Shown here one piece after another: positions 23,188-58,865 of a stretch of DNA of 64,000 bases. The DNA is taken from the NCBI GenBank assembly GCA_903885795.1, contig CAISJV010000005.1:1-64000 (forward strand), given 5' to 3'. The stretch is from an uncultured delta proteobacterium (lineage in GTDB: Bacteria; Desulfobacterota; Syntrophia; Syntrophales; UBA8958). A program made the position numbers and the translations under genes. Numbering within the stretch: the stretch's first letter is position 1; the number at the start of each line of letters is the position of its first letter. The notes under the pieces were generated by a model. It saw only the letters and a list, made by a program, of their open reading frames with translations, did not search any database and was not told where the DNA came from.

Positions 23188-24789
23188 ATGTCAGAGCCTG
23201 ATAAACAAGGTTTAATCAGCAGCATTGCCATATTGGCCAAGACAGGTTTGTCGCGAGCAACCCTGAATAACTACATAAAAATGGGAATGATTCCAGCGCC
23301 GATTGTGAAAAAACCGGATGATCCGTCAATCAAGGCGAAACAGATTGGCTATTTCGAGGATTCTGTATGGGATATCATCAACAAAATTAGACTGTATAAA
23401 AAGGAGGGACGTTCCATGAAAGAAATAGGTTCGCTACTGTCTTTGAAAAATAACATGTCGTCCGGAGAGCTCTCTCCCGTTATCCCGGAAAATATTGCGG
23501 GGACTTTCAGCGAGAAAAGATATGCCATAAACGGCACAAAAGAGATCCTTGAAAAAGAACCTTGCAGTGAAGAGATGAAGCAACGAGAATCCCCGGATGT
23601 AGCAATTCCAGAAAATAATGATATTCAATTGACAATCCATGAACTTCAATATCCGTCTTATCTGCTCAACAATAAATTCGAAATTGAATGGATCAATCCC
23701 GAAGCCGAAAAAATTATTTTCAGACGAAGTATCCGCTCTATAAAAATTGCCGATGGAAGAAATATCTTTCGCCTGTTGATCGATATGGGGTCGTCATTAG
23801 AGCCAAACAGACCGATGCTCGATTTCCATATGTCCATATTTGCAAAGAGATTTGAGAAGAAGGAGATCAATAAACTTTACCCTGCCGTCACAAAAAATGA
23901 AATATCCATGCTTGAGGACCTTTATGACCGTATGGATAATCAGGCTTCTCCTGCCGCTTTAAATGCCTATATGAATTTGTCCGGTGATCCCGGAACCGTA
24001 TATCAGGGGCATAAAATACAATTTCGTGAGGGAATGTTATGCGTATACGCCCCTGCAGATCAGATGATGCAGGGTGTTTTGGAATTACTTTCCCGGAGGG
24101 GAAGGCTGATCAATGATCTACTCAAGCAGCGTCTGCCAACCCAAATATTTTTTGCGGTCATGGTTGCAGACCTTCAGGACTCCGTTCGGATTTGTGCTGA
24201 ATTGCCTCCGGAAGAATATTTTTCCCTGATTAACCAGATCTGGAAATGCATGGAAGGTTCTTTTAGAAAATACTACGGCACATACGGGAAGCATACCGGC
24301 GATGGTATGGTTTATTATTTTCTCAGAGATTCAGATTCCAATTATATAATGAATGCGATCCTTTGCGCCATAGAGTTAAGGGAAAGCATGAAGAAGTTGA
24401 GTAATGAATGGAAAATCAACAAGGGATGGTTCAATGAGCTATTTTTGAATATCGGGATCAACGAAGGTGAAGAATATTTCGGAATGATCCCGGCGGCGCC
24501 TTCGATCGAATTTACGGCGCTTGGTGATTCCGTCAATTACGCAGGTCGTCTGTCTGACCTCGCCCGTTATGGTTCCATCTGGACAACCAAGAATCTTATC
24601 AGCCGGTTATGTGAAGAGGAACGAAAAATAATGCGCTACGGTATCCGCCGCAAGCAACAGGATCGTGAAGTAATGATCGAAAATGTTTTCTCGAGAGTTA
24701 TGGATCTTGTTCCGCCGGACAGTCCCAGGTCCAGTAAATTCATGGATATAGCAACACTTGCCGTGACCGAGGTGCTCAGCTTGCGTTAA
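23188..24789 (+). CDS. MerR-like DNA-binding domain fused to class III nucleotide cyclase
   Basis: The 533-residue protein has three parts. Residues 1-85 form a MerR-like winged helix (TGLSRATLNNYIKMGMI, then GYFEDSVWDIINKIRLYKKEG and SMKEIGSLL). Residues about 145-235 look PAS-like (YPSYLLNNKFEIEWINPEAEKI). Residues about 320-500 are a class III adenylyl/guanylyl cyclase domain. Both metal Asp residues are present (VADLQDS near 328; TGDGMVYYF near 372), as are LGDSVNYAGRL near 446-455 with the Asp of adenine-type enzymes and the transition-state Asn and Arg. The enzyme is therefore probably active. A DNA-binding head on a cyclase is unusual; it could tie cyclic-nucleotide production to a promoter or be a dimerisation module. 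No membrane segment is seen. Confidence 0.8.
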   Translation: MSEPDKQGLISSIAILAKTGLSRATLNNYIKMGMIPAPIVKKPDDPSIKAKQIGYFEDSVWDIINKIRLYKKEGRSMKEIGSLLSLKNNMSSGELSPVIPENIAGTFSEKRYAINGTKEILEKEPCSEEMKQRESPDVAIPENNDIQLTIHELQYPSYLLNNKFEIEWINPEAEKIIFRRSIRSIKIADGRNIFRLLIDMGSSLEPNRPMLDFHMSIFAKRFEKKEINKLYPAVTKNEISMLEDLYDRMDNQASPAALNAYMNLSGDPGTVYQGHKIQFREGMLCVYAPADQMMQGVLELLSRRGRLINDLLKQRLPTQIFFAVMVADLQDSVRICAELPPEEYFSLINQIWKCMEGSFRKYYGTYGKHTGDGMVYYFLRDSDSNYIMNAILCAIELRESMKKLSNEWKINKGWFNELFLNIGINEGEEYFGMIPAAPSIEFTALGDSVNYAGRLSDLARYGSIWTTKNLISRLCEEERKIMRYGIRRKQQDREVMIENVFSRVMDLVPPDSPRSSKFMDIATLAVTEVLSLR

Positions 24790-33435: not shown

Positions 33436-35325
33436 CTACAACCAGCGATCTGTCTTCTGTTTTTCATCGTATTCTGCTCGCAGGGCGATCTGGGTTGCTT
33501 CGGCAATATCTTCGACCCTTTTAACCCAATCCTCAAATTTGATATCCACGCCAAAGATTCCCACCATCTCGTCACGTTCATCGATAATTGGCGCCGATAC
33601 GGTAATGCAGAGAGCTCCCGTCATCTTGGAAATATAAAAATTAGTAACGTGGATCTTGCCTGTCTGTAAGGGTTTGATAAACCAATCGCGGTCGGATTGA
33701 TCTGTTCCCACGCCGTAGTTTTCATATTTGGCCCGATCCTGGATGTTCGTTATATTTCGTGTAATTTTGCGACCGTTCATGTCAACGACATAGGCAAACT
33801 GGATGGAGGGGTTTTCCTCAATGCATTTGAACATGACAGGTTCTTGAGACTCCGGTTTCATAGTTTTGATGGCGGGATGTTCGATCACCTGCTTGACGAC
33901 CGCTACAGCGGCCTGAGCAGCCCGGTATTTAATTTTGTCAAGCTCGGACATGAAGAGCTCAGGGAGGTATTTTCGAACCCTCTTTTCGAGTTCATCATTG
34001 GAAATGCTGGTGACCCGTCCGGATTCGTACTCCTCCGTAATCCACTTGTGAATCTTGGAAATTCCGGGATGGCGCTTGTCAATGGCAGCTTCTTCATCAA
34101 GATGGAAATGGGAGTTGATCCAGAAAGCGATCCCCGACTTACCTGATACGTCGGTTATCATGGGGACAATCGGTCTTTTCAGAATCTTGGTAGTATCAAA
34201 GATATTGTAAATCTCCTCACATTTGATCAAGCCATCAAGATGAACGCCGGCGCGGGTGACATTGAAATCAGCGCCTATAAAGGGATAATTGGCAGGAATC
34301 TTGTGACCGATCTCTTTTTCAAAATACCGGGCGATGTCGGTGATCACTGTCGTATCGATGCCGTTGGTCGATCCCGTCAGTCCGATATATTCGATGATCA
34401 GGGCCTCAATGGGGGGATTGCCGGTACGCTCTCCCAGTCCCAATAACGTTGAATTAGCGGCGGCGCAACCATAAAGCCAGGCGGTGGAGGCGTTGATCAA
34501 GGCCTTGTGAAAATCATTATGACCATGCCACTCCAGAAGGTGACCAGGGACGCCGGCGTCATCGATAAAGGCTCGGATCAACTTGTCGACGCTCCGGGGC
34601 AGGGAAGCGCCGGGATACGTTATCCCGTAACCCATGGTGTCACATAGTCTGATCTTGATATTTACTCCCGATTCCTCTCTGAGCTTCATAAGTTCAATAG
34701 CAAAAGGGACGCAGAAACCATAAATATCGGCACGGGTGATGTCCTCAAAATGACAGCGGGGGATAATGCCTTCATCAAGAATGGATCGAACGATATTCAA
34801 ATAGCCATCCATTGCCGTCCGGCGGCTTTTATTCATCTTGAGAAAGATATGGTAGTCCGACACTGAGGTCAGAATGCCCGTTTCCTTCAGGCCCGCTTCC
34901 TTAACCAGGTGGACATCTTCCTTGGCGGCCCTGATCCACCCGGTCACTTCCGGATATTTTAAACCGAGGGCCATGCATTTTTCAACGGCATCCCGATCTT
35001 TCTTGCTGTACAAAAAAAACTCGGTTTGACGAATAACACCATTTTCACCCCCGAGACGACTCATGAGCACAAAAAGATCAAAAATCTGTTTAACTGTATA
35101 AGGCGGCCTTGCCTGCTGTCCGTCCCGGAAGGTTGTATCGGTTATAAACAGATCATCGGCAGGTGAGATTGCCATCAACTTGTGATCAAAATCGATCCTG
35201 CTGACTTCGTCATAAGGAAAGACATCCTTCTGCAGGTTGGGCTCTTCAACATCCTTTAATTCATAGTGCCAGAACTTTGTGTGTTCGTGATCGAGAACCT
35301 TCTTATTCTTGTTCCACTTTGCCAT
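33436..35325 (-). CDS. HMGL-like acyltransferase (Re-citrate synthase candidate) with Cache-like tail
   Basis: 629 residues. After a lead of about 60 residues comes an HMGL-like/alpha-isopropylmalate-synthase TIM barrel: TDTTFRDGQQARPPYT (metal Asp and catalytic Arg), PRCHFEDITRAD, IRLCDTMGYG and LEWHGHNDFH with the metal His pair, then GERTGNPPIE. This wording matches the synthase group that, as I recall, includes the Re-citrate synthases of Clostridium kluyveri and Syntrophus, which join acetyl-CoA and oxaloacetate. The last 130 or so residues read as a PDC/Cache-like sensor fold (FAYVVDMNGRKITRN, DRDWFIKPLQTGKIHVTNFY, TVSAPIIDERDEMVGIFGVD). Such folds normally sit outside the membrane in receptors, whereas no membrane segment is present here. 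Isopropylmalate or homocitrate synthase is the alternative. Confidence 0.7.
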   Translation of the reverse strand: MAKWNKNKKVLDHEHTKFWHYELKDVEEPNLQKDVFPYDEVSRIDFDHKLMAISPADDLFITDTTFRDGQQARPPYTVKQIFDLFVLMSRLGGENGVIRQTEFFLYSKKDRDAVEKCMALGLKYPEVTGWIRAAKEDVHLVKEAGLKETGILTSVSDYHIFLKMNKSRRTAMDGYLNIVRSILDEGIIPRCHFEDITRADIYGFCVPFAIELMKLREESGVNIKIRLCDTMGYGITYPGASLPRSVDKLIRAFIDDAGVPGHLLEWHGHNDFHKALINASTAWLYGCAAANSTLLGLGERTGNPPIEALIIEYIGLTGSTNGIDTTVITDIARYFEKEIGHKIPANYPFIGADFNVTRAGVHLDGLIKCEEIYNIFDTTKILKRPIVPMITDVSGKSGIAFWINSHFHLDEEAAIDKRHPGISKIHKWITEEYESGRVTSISNDELEKRVRKYLPELFMSELDKIKYRAAQAAVAVVKQVIEHPAIKTMKPESQEPVMFKCIEENPSIQFAYVVDMNGRKITRNITNIQDRAKYENYGVGTDQSDRDWFIKPLQTGKIHVTNFYISKMTGALCITVSAPIIDERDEMVGIFGVDIKFEDWVKRVEDIAEATQIALRAEYDEKQKTDRWL

Positions 35326-49844: not shown

Positions 49845-51953
49845 TTATATTGTCTGACTCTGGATAGCGGTGATGACAACGGTATTGAAGATATCCCCGA
49901 CCGTGCATCCCCGGCTCAGGTCATTCACCGGTTTGTTCAGTCCCTGGAGCATGGGTCCGATAGCCACAGCGCCCGTTTCCCGCTGGACAGCCTTATAGGT
50001 ATTGTTCCCAGTATTCAGGTCGGGGAAGATAAGGACGCTGGCCTGTCCCGCCACATCCGAACCGGGCATTTTTTGAGCGCCCACAGCAGGGTCCACGGCC
50101 GCATCATACTGAATGGGTCCGGCAATCTTCAGGTCCGGACGTCGCTGTTTGACTATTTCCGTTGCCTTGCGCACCTTTTCTACATCGTCGCCAACTCCGG
50201 ATGCCCCGGAGGAGTACGAAAGCATGGCTATTTTGGGTTCAATGCCGAAAAAGGACGCGCTTTCCGCCGATGAAATGGCAATATCGGCCAGATTTTCGGA
50301 GGTGGGGTCGGGATTGACGGCGCAATCTCCGAAGACACATACCCGGTCCGGCATGCACATAAAAAAGACTGACGATACAATGGCAATCCCAGGTTTGGTT
50401 TTTACGAACTGGAGAGCCGGGACGATAGTATGCTGGGTGGTGTTGATTGCCCCCGAAACCATCCCGTCGGCTTTACCTTTATAGACCATCATCGTTCCGA
50501 AATAGGAGCCGTCGGTCATAAGATCCCGGGCCATTTCCCTAGTCACATTTTTTTCCTTCCGCAGCTCATAGAGGGTATCCACAAATTCCGGATACAATTC
50601 CGACTCGGTCGGTTGGAAAATATGAACATTGTCGGTGGTAAGGCGGATACCCAGACGTTTCGCTGTGGACAAAATCTCATTCCTGTCGCCAAAAATTGTA
50701 AGTTCAACGATGTCCTGTTCGATAAGGCGGGCGGCGGCCGTCAGCACCCGGTCATCATTTCCTTCCGGAAGAACGATATGGCGTTTCTGGCGACGCGCCC
50801 TTTTGACGATTTCATATTGGAACATGTGGGGCGTCATTCCTATGTGCTTGAAGGCTGTCAGCCGCTGTCCCAAGGCTTTAAGATCAACGTGTTCTTCGAA
50901 AGTACGGATAGCGAGTTCGACCTTGCGGGTATTATCGGCATATAGCTCAGAGCGGATAGAACCGATCTGGTTGGCTGTAGCATATGTTCCCGTGGGAACG
51001 ACGCTGATGGGGGCTACCGTTTGCAGTCCTTCGATCAATTTGGAAACGGCTGGCTCCGGCTCAAAACCGCCGGTCAGCATGATACCAGCCAGGCGTGGAT
51101 AATGGCGTGAGAGATTGGCCTGGAGGGCCCCGATGATGATGTCCGAGCGATCTCCAGGGGTAACGATCAGGGTATTGTCTTTGAGGTAATCAAGAAAGTG
51201 ATGCAACTGCATGGCCCCGACGATGGTATGATCCACGGGGTTGTCGTGCCGGTCGATTCCGAATAGGGCTTTGGCCCCCAGGCTTTCATGAACTTCTCTA
51301 AAGGTTGGGCTGTTGAGCTTGCTCTTCTCAGGTATGACGGACAAGATCGTTGGTTGGGGCAAGTAGTTACGGATAGCAGCATCCAATTCCTGAAGCAGGT
51401 CCTCTCGTGCCCGGTTGATCAGGACGGCCAGCACATCAACATTACCCTTTTTAAAGCCTTCGTAGGCAGCAAGGGTAAATTTGGCAACTTCCTCAACAGT
51501 TTTATTTTCTCCGGAGACGACCATAATGAGGGGAATACCGAGGTTCTTCGGGATGAGGATATTTGCGTCAAACTCAAATATGGAGCTTTTCCCGGCGTAA
51601 TCGGTACCCTCGACAATGGTAAAATCACATTTATCTTCAATCTTTTTGTATTTTTCTATCAGGGCGTCAATGACGGCCACATCCGTCTTACTGGCCAGGA
51701 TATCGGCAAGCTCTCTTCCAGAAAATCCATAGGCCTCCTCATAAGACATGGACATATTGAAACGCTTCAAGATTAACTGGATGTGGGGATCCTTCTCTTG
51801 CTTGCCGTTTTCCTTCGCGCCGTTGACCGTTATAATGGGTTTGAAGTAGCCAACATTAGGCAGATGGTTAAGAATCGCGTCCATCATGCCCAGCACGATG
51901 AGGGATTTCCCGCTATGCTCCTCGATTGCCGCAATATAAACGCCTTTAGTCAT
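49845..51953 (-). CDS. pta: Phosphate acetyltransferase, long (DRTGG) type
   Basis: Pta converts acetyl-CoA and phosphate to acetyl phosphate. The 702-residue protein has an N-terminal BioD-like P-loop domain (AAIEEHSGKSLIV), a central DRTGG domain and a C-terminal PTA_PTB catalytic domain (about residues 375-700) with VLPEGNDDRVLTAA, DGMVSGAINTTQHT, SYSSGASG and GPMLQGLNKPVNDLSRGC. This is the E. coli-like long form. The classical acetate kinase partner is absent here; acetate kinase instead appears fused to PduL 5 kb away. Confidence 0.93.
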   Translation of the reverse strand: MTKGVYIAAIEEHSGKSLIVLGMMDAILNHLPNVGYFKPIITVNGAKENGKQEKDPHIQLILKRFNMSMSYEEAYGFSGRELADILASKTDVAVIDALIEKYKKIEDKCDFTIVEGTDYAGKSSIFEFDANILIPKNLGIPLIMVVSGENKTVEEVAKFTLAAYEGFKKGNVDVLAVLINRAREDLLQELDAAIRNYLPQPTILSVIPEKSKLNSPTFREVHESLGAKALFGIDRHDNPVDHTIVGAMQLHHFLDYLKDNTLIVTPGDRSDIIIGALQANLSRHYPRLAGIMLTGGFEPEPAVSKLIEGLQTVAPISVVPTGTYATANQIGSIRSELYADNTRKVELAIRTFEEHVDLKALGQRLTAFKHIGMTPHMFQYEIVKRARRQKRHIVLPEGNDDRVLTAAARLIEQDIVELTIFGDRNEILSTAKRLGIRLTTDNVHIFQPTESELYPEFVDTLYELRKEKNVTREMARDLMTDGSYFGTMMVYKGKADGMVSGAINTTQHTIVPALQFVKTKPGIAIVSSVFFMCMPDRVCVFGDCAVNPDPTSENLADIAISSAESASFFGIEPKIAMLSYSSGASGVGDDVEKVRKATEIVKQRRPDLKIAGPIQYDAAVDPAVGAQKMPGSDVAGQASVLIFPDLNTGNNTYKAVQRETGAVAIGPMLQGLNKPVNDLSRGCTVGDIFNTVVITAIQSQTI

Positions 51954-56410: not shown

Positions 56411-58741
56411 TCATACATAGTTCCGATGCTGTATGGATTCAATATACCCCACCGTGCCGGATGATATCTGGGCAGCGTTGGCCTCATCGGTATCCAGGTG
56501 CATGTCCATTCGGAAGCTTGGATTGACGCGGGTGAGGACATCGCCAAAAATCAACTCCCGGACACCCTTTACTTTGATCATGACCACGTCTTTATCCCGC
56601 AGCCCCATGCTCAAGGCCTCTTCAGGGGACATGTGGATGTGGCGTTTGGCGCAGATTACCCCTTTGTCCAGATCAACCCTACCAATATCGCCCTCGATCG
56701 TGACCCCAGGGGTGCCCTCAATATCTCCGGAGTCCCGAATAGGGGCGTCAATACCAAGGCGGAATTGTTCGGTCCGGGCAATTTCTACCTGGGATTCCTT
56801 GCGCAGTGGTCCAAGGATGCGTACCTTTTCTATACGACCCTTGGGACCAATCAGGTTTACTGTTTCCGCCGCCGCATACTGACCTGGCTGGCTCAGCTCA
56901 GAGCGTGGTGTCAGGGAGCGGCCGGCTCCGAAAATTATTTCGAAGTCATCCTGGCACAAATGGACATGATGTGCAGAAGTACTGAGAGGAATCGCCTTGG
57001 ATCGAAATCTTTCCATCTCGTTAACAGGCAGAGAACGTCCCAGGGAATGGATGGTTTCCCGGGCAATCATCCTTTCTTCATCGGCGGGAACAACGAGGAT
57101 ACGGATCTTGGCTTCGGTCTCGGATATGTCGGCGATTTGTCCCCGCATGGCAACGGTTTTACGGTTTATCTCGTCGGAGATGGCAATTCCGAAAACCTCA
57201 AGCCCCTGGCAGATGCGGGCGCGAATCTCGGGAGAGTTTTCACCGATGCCGCCGGTAAAAATAAGGGCATCGAGGCCGCCGAGGGCGGCAATATATGATC
57301 CGATGTATTTCTTGACCCGGTAACAGAAAACAGTTACCGCCATTTTGCAACGCATATCTCCTGCTTCCGCCGCTTCCAGGACTTCGCGCATGTCGTTGCT
57401 CTTGCCGCTTAGTCCCATTAGTCCACTGTCCTTGTTGAGAATCTTATCGATCTGCTCGAAGGTCATGCTCGCATGACGCATCAGGTGAAGGAGAGCCCCC
57501 GGGTCTACATCACCGGCCCGGGTTCCCATCACCAGCCCTTCAAGAGGCGTCATGCCCATGCTTGTATCGATGCTCTGCCCATGATCGATGGCGCAGACGG
57601 ATGCGCCGCTTCCCAGGTGACAGGAGATAATTTTCAAGTCTCCGACCGGAACTTTAAGGGCGGTGGCGGCGCTTAGCGAGACAAAGCGGTGGTTGGTGCC
57701 GTGGAAACCGAAACGGCGGATCTGCTCTTTCTCGCATAGATCGTAGGGAAGGGCATAACGAAAGGCTGCCTCGGGCATATTGAGATGAAAGGCCGTATCG
57801 AAGACGGCGACTTGGGGAACCTTAGGCAAAATACTCCTTAACGTTTCGATGCCTTCCAGATTATAGGGATTATGGAGGGGGGCGATGGGTATGCACGCAC
57901 GAATAGCTTCCAGAACCTCATCGTTGATAGGCATGGAACTGGAAAAACGTTTGCCCCCATGGACGACCCGATGGCCAACGGCCGAGATCTCATTGACGTC
58001 GTTCACGGCCCCGTACTCGGCATGTGCAAGGACCTGCACCATGTCATGGAAGGCGTCGCTCACGGTGGCGATATGTTCACCGGGAATGGTCTGCTTTTGG
58101 CCCGATTTTTTAATGACGTGGGATGCCTTACCGGACCCGATTTTTTCCACCAGACCATCTAGTAACGATTCTTTCTTGACAGTGTCGAAGAGGGAATACT
58201 TTAATGAGGAACTGCCGCTGTTTACAACCAGAATCTTCATCGGTTCCGATACGGAGGAAAAGTTCAGATCATAGGGATCTTCATTTTCCCGATGGGCAAG
58301 TCGTCGCCGCATCAACTCTTCTTGAAACTTTTCGTCGTCCAGAAGGCGCTTGGTGATGAATTTTGTCACCTTCATGAGGGTCTTGGGATTCCGGGCGATG
58401 ACCTGAGAGACCATTTCTCTTGGAATTTTAATGACCTTACTGTCCCGGGAAGAGGTTACATTGGCAGCCGCCGGTTCGCCGGAGAGTATCGACATCTCGC
58501 CAAAGAAGGCCCCCCTTTCGAGGGAGGCGATTACCTGTTGTTTTCCCGTTTCATCAGGCAACGAAACGTCAACTTCTCCATCATAGACAATCCAGAGGTA
58601 ACGTCCGATGTCCCCCATCTTGATAATTCTGGTGTTGTCGGGATAATCAATGCTTAGAGAGTTCGCCGTTAAAAAAGCGATATCCTCTGCCCCCAGATCA
58701 GAGAAAATCTCGATGGATTTAAAAAAATGATCTAGTTCCAT
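56411..58741 (-). CDS. Fusion: cyclic-nucleotide-binding domain + acetate kinase + PduL phosphotransacylase
   Basis: 776 residues in three parts. Residues 5-140 form a Crp/PKA-type cyclic-nucleotide-binding fold (GRYLWIVYDGEVDVS, GAFFGEMSILSGEPAAANV). Residues 168-565 are a full acetate kinase: ILVVNSGSSSLKY, GHRVVHGG, VFDTAFH, FGFHGTNH, CHLGSGAS, MGTRAGDVDPG and FTGGIGENSP. Residues 580-776 are a full PduL phosphotransacylase with zinc-type histidines in AHHVHL, AKRHIHMSPEEA and MHLDTDEAN. Together the two enzymes would convert acyl-CoA to acid plus ATP through acyl phosphate without releasing it far, and the first domain could gate this. The binding cassette has Ala-91 where the phosphate-binding Arg is expected. 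ATG 58741 follows AGGAGGTATTATT. Confidence 0.9.
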   Translation of the reverse strand: MELDHFFKSIEIFSDLGAEDIAFLTANSLSIDYPDNTRIIKMGDIGRYLWIVYDGEVDVSLPDETGKQQVIASLERGAFFGEMSILSGEPAAANVTSSRDSKVIKIPREMVSQVIARNPKTLMKVTKFITKRLLDDEKFQEELMRRRLAHRENEDPYDLNFSSVSEPMKILVVNSGSSSLKYSLFDTVKKESLLDGLVEKIGSGKASHVIKKSGQKQTIPGEHIATVSDAFHDMVQVLAHAEYGAVNDVNEISAVGHRVVHGGKRFSSSMPINDEVLEAIRACIPIAPLHNPYNLEGIETLRSILPKVPQVAVFDTAFHLNMPEAAFRYALPYDLCEKEQIRRFGFHGTNHRFVSLSAATALKVPVGDLKIISCHLGSGASVCAIDHGQSIDTSMGMTPLEGLVMGTRAGDVDPGALLHLMRHASMTFEQIDKILNKDSGLMGLSGKSNDMREVLEAAEAGDMRCKMAVTVFCYRVKKYIGSYIAALGGLDALIFTGGIGENSPEIRARICQGLEVFGIAISDEINRKTVAMRGQIADISETEAKIRILVVPADEERMIARETIHSLGRSLPVNEMERFRSKAIPLSTSAHHVHLCQDDFEIIFGAGRSLTPRSELSQPGQYAAAETVNLIGPKGRIEKVRILGPLRKESQVEIARTEQFRLGIDAPIRDSGDIEGTPGVTIEGDIGRVDLDKGVICAKRHIHMSPEEALSMGLRDKDVVMIKVKGVRELIFGDVLTRVNPSFRMDMHLDTDEANAAQISSGTVGYIESIQHRNYV

Positions 58742-58836
58742 AATAATACCTCCTATCGGCTCATAAACTGTTATCTTGCATGTCGCTGTTGACGCAGGAA
58801 AATCATCTGACAGAAGAATACAAAAAACGTTTAGGA

Positions 58837-58865
58837 ATACTAATAAATATCTCAATCAGAGTCAA
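58837..58865 (-). promoter_or_regulatory. Promoter for the acetate kinase-PduL fusion
   Basis: On the minus strand TTGACT (58865-58860) and TAGTAT (58842-58837) are spaced 17 bp, giving a leader of about 90 nt. No second gene is in the unit, as the lyase gene begins 335 bp past its end. Confidence 0.5.

Follow-up and report, generated by a model that had tools for sequence, protein, structure and literature searches.

Acetate formation from acetyl-CoA is an important source of ATP for syntrophs. Can one polypeptide carry this whole route, and what would a cyclic-nucleotide-binding (CNB) domain do at its N-terminus? These questions are raised by a gene in a 64,000-nucleotide stretch of DNA from an uncultured delta proteobacterium of the order Syntrophales (positions 1 to 64,000 of contig CAISJV010000005.1, assembly GCA_903885795.1), which we refer to as the window. 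An initial annotation, made from the sequence alone, described its product as a CNB domain joined to acetate kinase (Ack) and to the phosphotransacylase PduL, proposed that it channels acyl-CoA to ATP under the control of a ligand of the N-terminal domain, and knew of no described protein with all three parts.

Multidomain proteins that combine Ack with PF06130 (PduL) are already in print, together with a proposal that they channel their intermediate (Erbilgin et al., 2016, PMC4784909). The window protein resembles them in the fusion of Ack to a PduL-type phosphotransacylase, but carries a CNB domain, of which the section on these fusions makes no mention; the same source describes PduL fused to Ack as lacking the encapsulation peptide. 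The Ack–PduL pair as such is thus known, and only the added CNB domain is new to us. In literature searches that covered titles and the beginnings of abstracts among the papers listed, with subscription papers and database entries outside their scope, we found no three-domain CNB–Ack–PduL protein.

One reading frame encodes three domains

The gene lies on the minus strand, a detail missing from the initial annotation; on the plus strand, the interval 56411–58741 contains stops in the frame translated. The minus-strand frame runs from an ATG at 58741 to a TGA at 56411 without an intervening stop and encodes 776 residues (CDS 56411–58741, stop included). A longer frame of 814 residues is possible from a TTG at 58855, but we favor the ATG, since an AGGAGG motif, read from the sequence as a likely ribosome-binding site, lies 7 nt upstream of it (58749–58754, minus strand) and since this start is common to the relatives.

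Three Pfam families match the product: cNMP_binding at residues 32–118 (69 bits, E = 4.5e-19), Acetate_kinase at residues 169–561 (477 bits, E = 4.6e-143, profile positions 1–392 of 392) and PTAC/PduL at residues 586–759 (248 bits, E = 4.5e-74, profile positions 2–175 of 176). Two NCBIfam models, ackA (TIGR00016) and phosphate propanoyltransferase (NF011652), likewise score above their cut-offs. With residue conservation for the two enzymes, and with a structural model and structure match for the N-terminal part, we delimit the CNB domain to residues 1–140 (58322–58741), the kinase to residues 168–566 (57044–58240) and the PduL domain to residues 580–776 (56414–57004), all on the minus strand. 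The linker between CNB and kinase contains the motif DPYDLNFSS (residues 155–163; 58253–58279, minus strand), which is nearly invariant across members and begins with DPY in 30 of 30. The proposed architecture therefore stands: both enzyme domains, identified over nearly their full profiles, share one open frame with a CNB domain, which makes the protein an Ack–PduL fusion with an N-terminal addition.

Distribution, descent and decay

The window's genome (4.0 Mb in 95 contigs, estimated completeness 100%) contains a second full-length CNB–Ack–PduL copy on another contig (C38), with 55% identity; the next-best match covers only residues 341–502, a stretch common to butyrate kinases. Within the order, 70 of 155 genomes match the query at E ≤ 1e-50, and, with the rows read by eye, 26 of the 155 have the CNB–Ack–PduL architecture at full length, with 60–100% identity and from eight families. 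Pieces cut by contig ends occur in six further genomes (G003, G004, G005, G053, G064 and G136), and eight of the 155 have an Ack–PduL fusion without CNB domain (48–52% identity), the copy in G077 with an internal TAG. A class-level search took in the same number of genomes (155) and brought no additions. In a phylum-wide sample, 14 of 395 genomes, a number that includes the window's own genome and its order, pass a threshold of E ≤ 1e-120; this sample contributed three further CNB-bearing members from another family (43–48% identity), of which that in G165 shifts frame between Ack and PduL. Our sole reach outside the phylum was a peptide-based scan of named genomes, which finds close relatives; it returned 16 loci, of which 14 carry all or part of the fusion and two match by the CNB domain only. 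The nearest named relatives come from metagenomes, assembled under the names Syntrophus sp. and Deltaproteobacteria/Syntrophaceae; the nearest two have 93–94% identity. The annotation's remark that the protein matters for syntrophs is supported for such a Syntrophus-type organism.

We considered whether the fusion could be a product of chance, misassembly or frameshift and discarded this, as the same domain order is found, stop-free, in assemblies of many other species. Given this recurrence and the second copy in the same genome, an assembly accident is not a reasonable explanation. Elsewhere in the phylum, a 407-codon frame on contig C1 of G184 (L097) matches the kinase end and PduL only (residues 407–774); the 2.5 kb of sequence retrieved there does not contain the front half of the kinase.

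A rapidly built tree of 73 AckA domains places every fused form on one side of a branch with moderate SH-aLRT support (86), and the tool warned of meeting long branches. The CNB-less fusions form one group (support 100) and the CNB-bearing forms two, whose order relative to the CNB-less group the tree leaves unplaced, again under the long-branch warning. Read most simply, this tree would suggest a single fusion event, after which the CNB domain was gained or lost. Purifying selection acts on all three domains, as seen in comparisons with the two nearest relatives: dN/dS is 0.147 for CNB, 0.058 for Ack and 0.038 for PduL against one (L027), and 0.155, 0.065 and 0.033 against the other (L028). 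Values for the paralog pair, for which the domain boundaries were off by some 10 residues, are left out of account.

The fusion is also damaged or absent in relatives. In G007, a record labeled Syntrophus aciditrophicus isolate SulCav, the copy at the corresponding place beside bipA and Pta (contig C259 = L039, 4001–4909; also L126) is reduced by large internal deletions to pieces that match residues 1–111, 432–486 and 668–776; a second copy is split between two frames, for which an assembly error is also possible. G002, a 100% complete genome of the window's genus, has no fusion copy at E ≤ 1e-50. An AcsA above cut-off is found in G007, and AcsA is present in G002. The decay in the former, and the absence from the latter if it belongs to that species, would agree with the lack of Pta and AckA reported for S. 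aciditrophicus (PMC4992975).

Two apparently complete enzymes

Conservation was counted over 30 distinct members, 27 from the order and three from the other family. In the kinase, the equivalents of Methanosarcina thermophila N7, R91, L122, H123, D148, F179, H180, P232, R241, G331 and E384, which we take to be active-site or pocket residues, do not vary among the 30 members when mapped by alignment. The Val93 equivalent varies (V in 25, A in three, T in two), and the window copy retains the Val, Leu, Phe and Pro (residues 260, 289, 346 and 399) that presumably form the acetate pocket. The Asn211 equivalent is Ser378 in the window copy (Ser in 25 and Asn in five of the 30); we do not regard this as a kinase defect, as Asn, Ser and Ala are all found at this position in fused and stand-alone kinases. 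The zinc ligands described for PduL, H48, H50, E109, H157, H159 and H204 (PMC4784909), are, when mapped by motif, invariant among the 29 members whose PduL is in frame; R103 is kept as well. With a full profile match above the curated cut-off and the catalytic residues in the kinase, and with a match above cut-off, both zinc-site His/Glu sets and Arg103 in PduL, the two domains are proper members of PF00871/TIGR00016 and PF06130/NF011652, and the complete active sites that the annotation had seen are supported.

From the conserved catalytic residues and the purifying selection, we infer two working enzymes. The PduL domain would interconvert acetyl-CoA plus Pi and acetyl phosphate plus CoA, and the kinase domain acetyl phosphate plus ADP and acetate plus ATP; a single chain would then complete substrate-level phosphorylation from acetyl-CoA or, running backwards, activate acetate. 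Judged from sequence, it is likely that one chain catalyzes acetyl-CoA + Pi + ADP ⇌ acetate + ATP, and this part of the initial proposal can be regarded as probable. A full-length AlphaFold model built with 13 close relatives reached a mean pLDDT of 56, too poor a value for judging the contacts between the three domains; channelling between PduL and the kinase is plausible. Activity, direction, acetate as the substrate, regulation and channelling are all properties that we ascribe to the fusion by inference.

A CNB fold without its phosphate anchor

The model of the CNB domain alone is good (pLDDT 85, pTM 0.75), and its best solved match is CNB-B of protein kinase G II (5bv6; Z 20.0, rmsd 1.6 over 140). 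Together with the profile score above cut-off, this fold match places the domain in PF00027, as the annotation had assumed. Mycobacterial Pat (Rv0998; 4avb, Z 17.3), a CNB–lysine acetyltransferase of acetyl metabolism that was solved with cAMP and acetyl-CoA, is alike in having a CNB domain N-terminal to an acetyl-metabolism enzyme. However, Pat transfers acetyl groups and has cAMP bound to its CNB domain, whereas the fusion has ATP-forming partner enzymes and has lost the Arg of its cassette.

This cassette, FGEMSILSGEPAAANV (residues 80–95; 58457–58504, minus strand), aligns with Ala91 in the place of the Arg. At this position, equivalent to PKA RIa Arg209, the 30 members have Ala (24), Thr (5) or Val (1) and in no case Arg; the canonical cAMP-binding cassette is absent, as judged with an alignment to protein kinase G as well. 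Among the ten further CNB domains of this genome, taken as a control, eight retain the Arg, one of them (L075) with a one-residue insertion; of the remaining two, L078 has Thr and L081 no recognizable cassette. At the position of PKA RIa Asp170, which adjoins the loop Gly, 27 of 30 members have Arg (Arg47 in the β2–β3 loop; 58601–58603, minus strand), while the ten control domains have Asp in six cases and Arg in one (L081). The β2–β3 loop Gly is kept in 28 of 30 members and the cassette Glu (E82), which contacts the ribose, in 29 of 30; residue 84, the counterpart of PKA Ala202, is Ser in 27 and Ala in three. In the second copy of the window's genome, E82 is replaced by Asp and R47 by Asn.

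According to Kannan 2007 (PMC2246266), the loop Gly and the cassette Arg are conserved together and set cAMP-binding CNB families apart from the others, and the retention of the Gly with the Arg gone fits poorly with the simple loss of a cAMP site. A precedent is the trypanosome PKA regulatory subunit (6flo, 6h4g), which has V, T, A or N in place of the Arg that holds the cAMP phosphate and is described as binding purine nucleosides instead (PMC6440977, PMC10959531). It also has Glu at the Ala202 position, whereas the fusion has Ser or Ala there; the fusion shares the neutral replacement of the Arg with this nucleoside-binding type and departs from it at residue 84.

What the domain may sense and which way the enzyme may run

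We consider it probable that the protein is a bifunctional acetate/ATP enzyme whose CNB domain is a structural module or a sensor for something other than cAMP. The N-terminal domain would act as a regulatory or oligomerizing module without the canonical cAMP phosphate anchor, and would probably answer to another small ligand, or to none. The annotation's version, in which cAMP or cGMP gates the enzyme through a working CNB domain, appears unlikely to us. It would accord with the strong fold match, the retained E82, a Ser or Ala at the Ala202 position that should not clash with the phosphate, eight class III cyclase matches above the Pfam cut-off in the genome, one of them in the window, and the example of Pat; but the anchoring Arg, a mark of cAMP-binding CNB families (Kannan 2007, PMC2246266), is missing throughout the fusion family and kept in most control domains, which makes gating doubtful and leaves the claim unsupported in the form in which it was made. 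This loss is no proof against weak binding, since mammalian RIa with this Arg mutated is described as retaining activation by cAMP with an EC50 changed about 5-fold (PMC6440977), and an Arg-to-Lys exchange as lowering affinity about ten-fold (PMC2246266). The 'none' half of our preferred reading, a dead sensor that persists as a ligand-free structural or oligomerization module, would explain why the Arg is lost in every member, why dN/dS is higher for the CNB domain than for the two enzyme domains in both comparisons and why the paralog also alters E82 and R47. We hold it to be somewhat improbable, as its dN/dS is still only about 0.15, and as the G-[ED]-M-[SA] cassette and Arg47 are conserved across families beyond what a scaffold would appear to need. 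Tentatively, and with slightly more confidence, we suggest that the domain senses, in an allosteric manner, a ligand that is not a cyclic nucleotide, such as a nucleoside, a nucleotide, a CoA-type compound or an acyl phosphate. The ligand would be held via the relocated Arg (R47) and the conserved E82, and the sensor would determine how fast, or in which direction, a one-chain acetyl-CoA/ATP machine runs in organisms whose life is close to thermodynamic equilibrium.

The enzymatic half of the preferred reading has its own competitor. Acetate kinase and phosphotransacylase are both reversible, the PduL family is named for propanoyl-CoA, and the Val93 equivalent of the kinase varies among members; accordingly, the fusion might work mainly in reverse, on propionate or other short acids, or as two independent activities without channelling. 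The intact acetate pocket of the window copy speaks against this, and we think such a role rather doubtful.

Neighboring genes and other routes to ATP

Gene context gave no clue to function. None of the loci inspected outside the genus has a function-pointing neighbor, and the only neighbor recurrence there is a block of seven neighboring clusters shared by L032 and L037. Ten neighbor proteins scanned at seven loci include SufBD, a weak DsbA-like match, two alpha/beta hydrolases, MFS, DUF4147/MOFRL, MltA, SMC-like, RadC and DEAD helicase proteins, and we set operon context aside as a functional indicator. Within the genus, at L128 5844–11010 on C38, the second copy of the window's genome is followed after about 20 nt by a DUF3141 gene (827 bits, weakly PHA-synthase-like) with its own AGGAGG, and then by MlaE/MlaD genes; the DUF3141 link recurs in three other genomes of the genus (L020/G005, L025/G007 and L088/G006). 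Elsewhere in the window, a frame at 23188–24789 encodes a protein whose C-terminus resembles class III adenylate/guanylate cyclases (40 bits), and another at 33436–35325 combines an HMGL-like lyase/synthase with a Cache/PDC-type sensor domain, a pairing of which we know no other example.

At a distance of 4.5 kb from the fusion, the window encodes a separate large phosphate acetyltransferase, Pta (AAA_26–DRTGG–PTA_PTB; 49845–51953, minus strand; Pfam and NCBIfam). It might work together with the PduL domain or in its stead, so that the PduL domain could be redundant in this genome. Counted as TIGR00651 matches at E ≤ 1e-20, with stand-alone PduL and phosphotransbutyrylase genes outside the count, Pta occurs in ten of the 155 genomes of the order, six of them in the window's genus, and in three of the 26 with the full-length fusion. 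Given this rarity, PduL may be the working phosphotransacylase in most carriers.

AMP-forming acetyl-CoA synthetase (AcsA, TIGR02188) scores above cut-off in 105 of the 155 genomes. It does so in 20 of the 26 carriers, with no association (Fisher p 0.36; the test used 104 of the 105 positive genomes), and we reject the idea that the fusion replaces it. The carriers without AcsA above cut-off are G000, G010, G042, G063, G094 and G123, with partial or contig-cut matches below cut-off in G094 and G123. The window's genome has no AcsA above cut-off (best match 187 bits against a cut-off of 725), and contains eight matches that resemble ADP-forming Acs, all below cut-off. Because of the Acs in most carriers and these ADP-forming-Acs-like proteins, the fusion is not necessarily the principal source of ATP; on the genomic evidence it is a good candidate, not the sole one, for acetyl-CoA-derived ATP in the window organism.

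Implications for syntrophic acetate metabolism

The closest physiological parallel comes from the same group of syntrophs: in S. aciditrophicus, the AMP-forming Acs1 likewise makes ATP from acetyl-CoA at substrate level, in an organism reported to be without Pta and AckA (PMC4992975), whereas the window's genome encodes Pta together with two copies of CNB–Ack–PduL but lacks an AcsA above cut-off. A species reportedly without the usual enzyme pair (PMC4992975) has close relatives with a fused, sensor-bearing version of it. The fusion offers an orphan CNB domain, and with it the regulation of the near-equilibrium acetyl-CoA/acetate step becomes directly testable with one purified protein.
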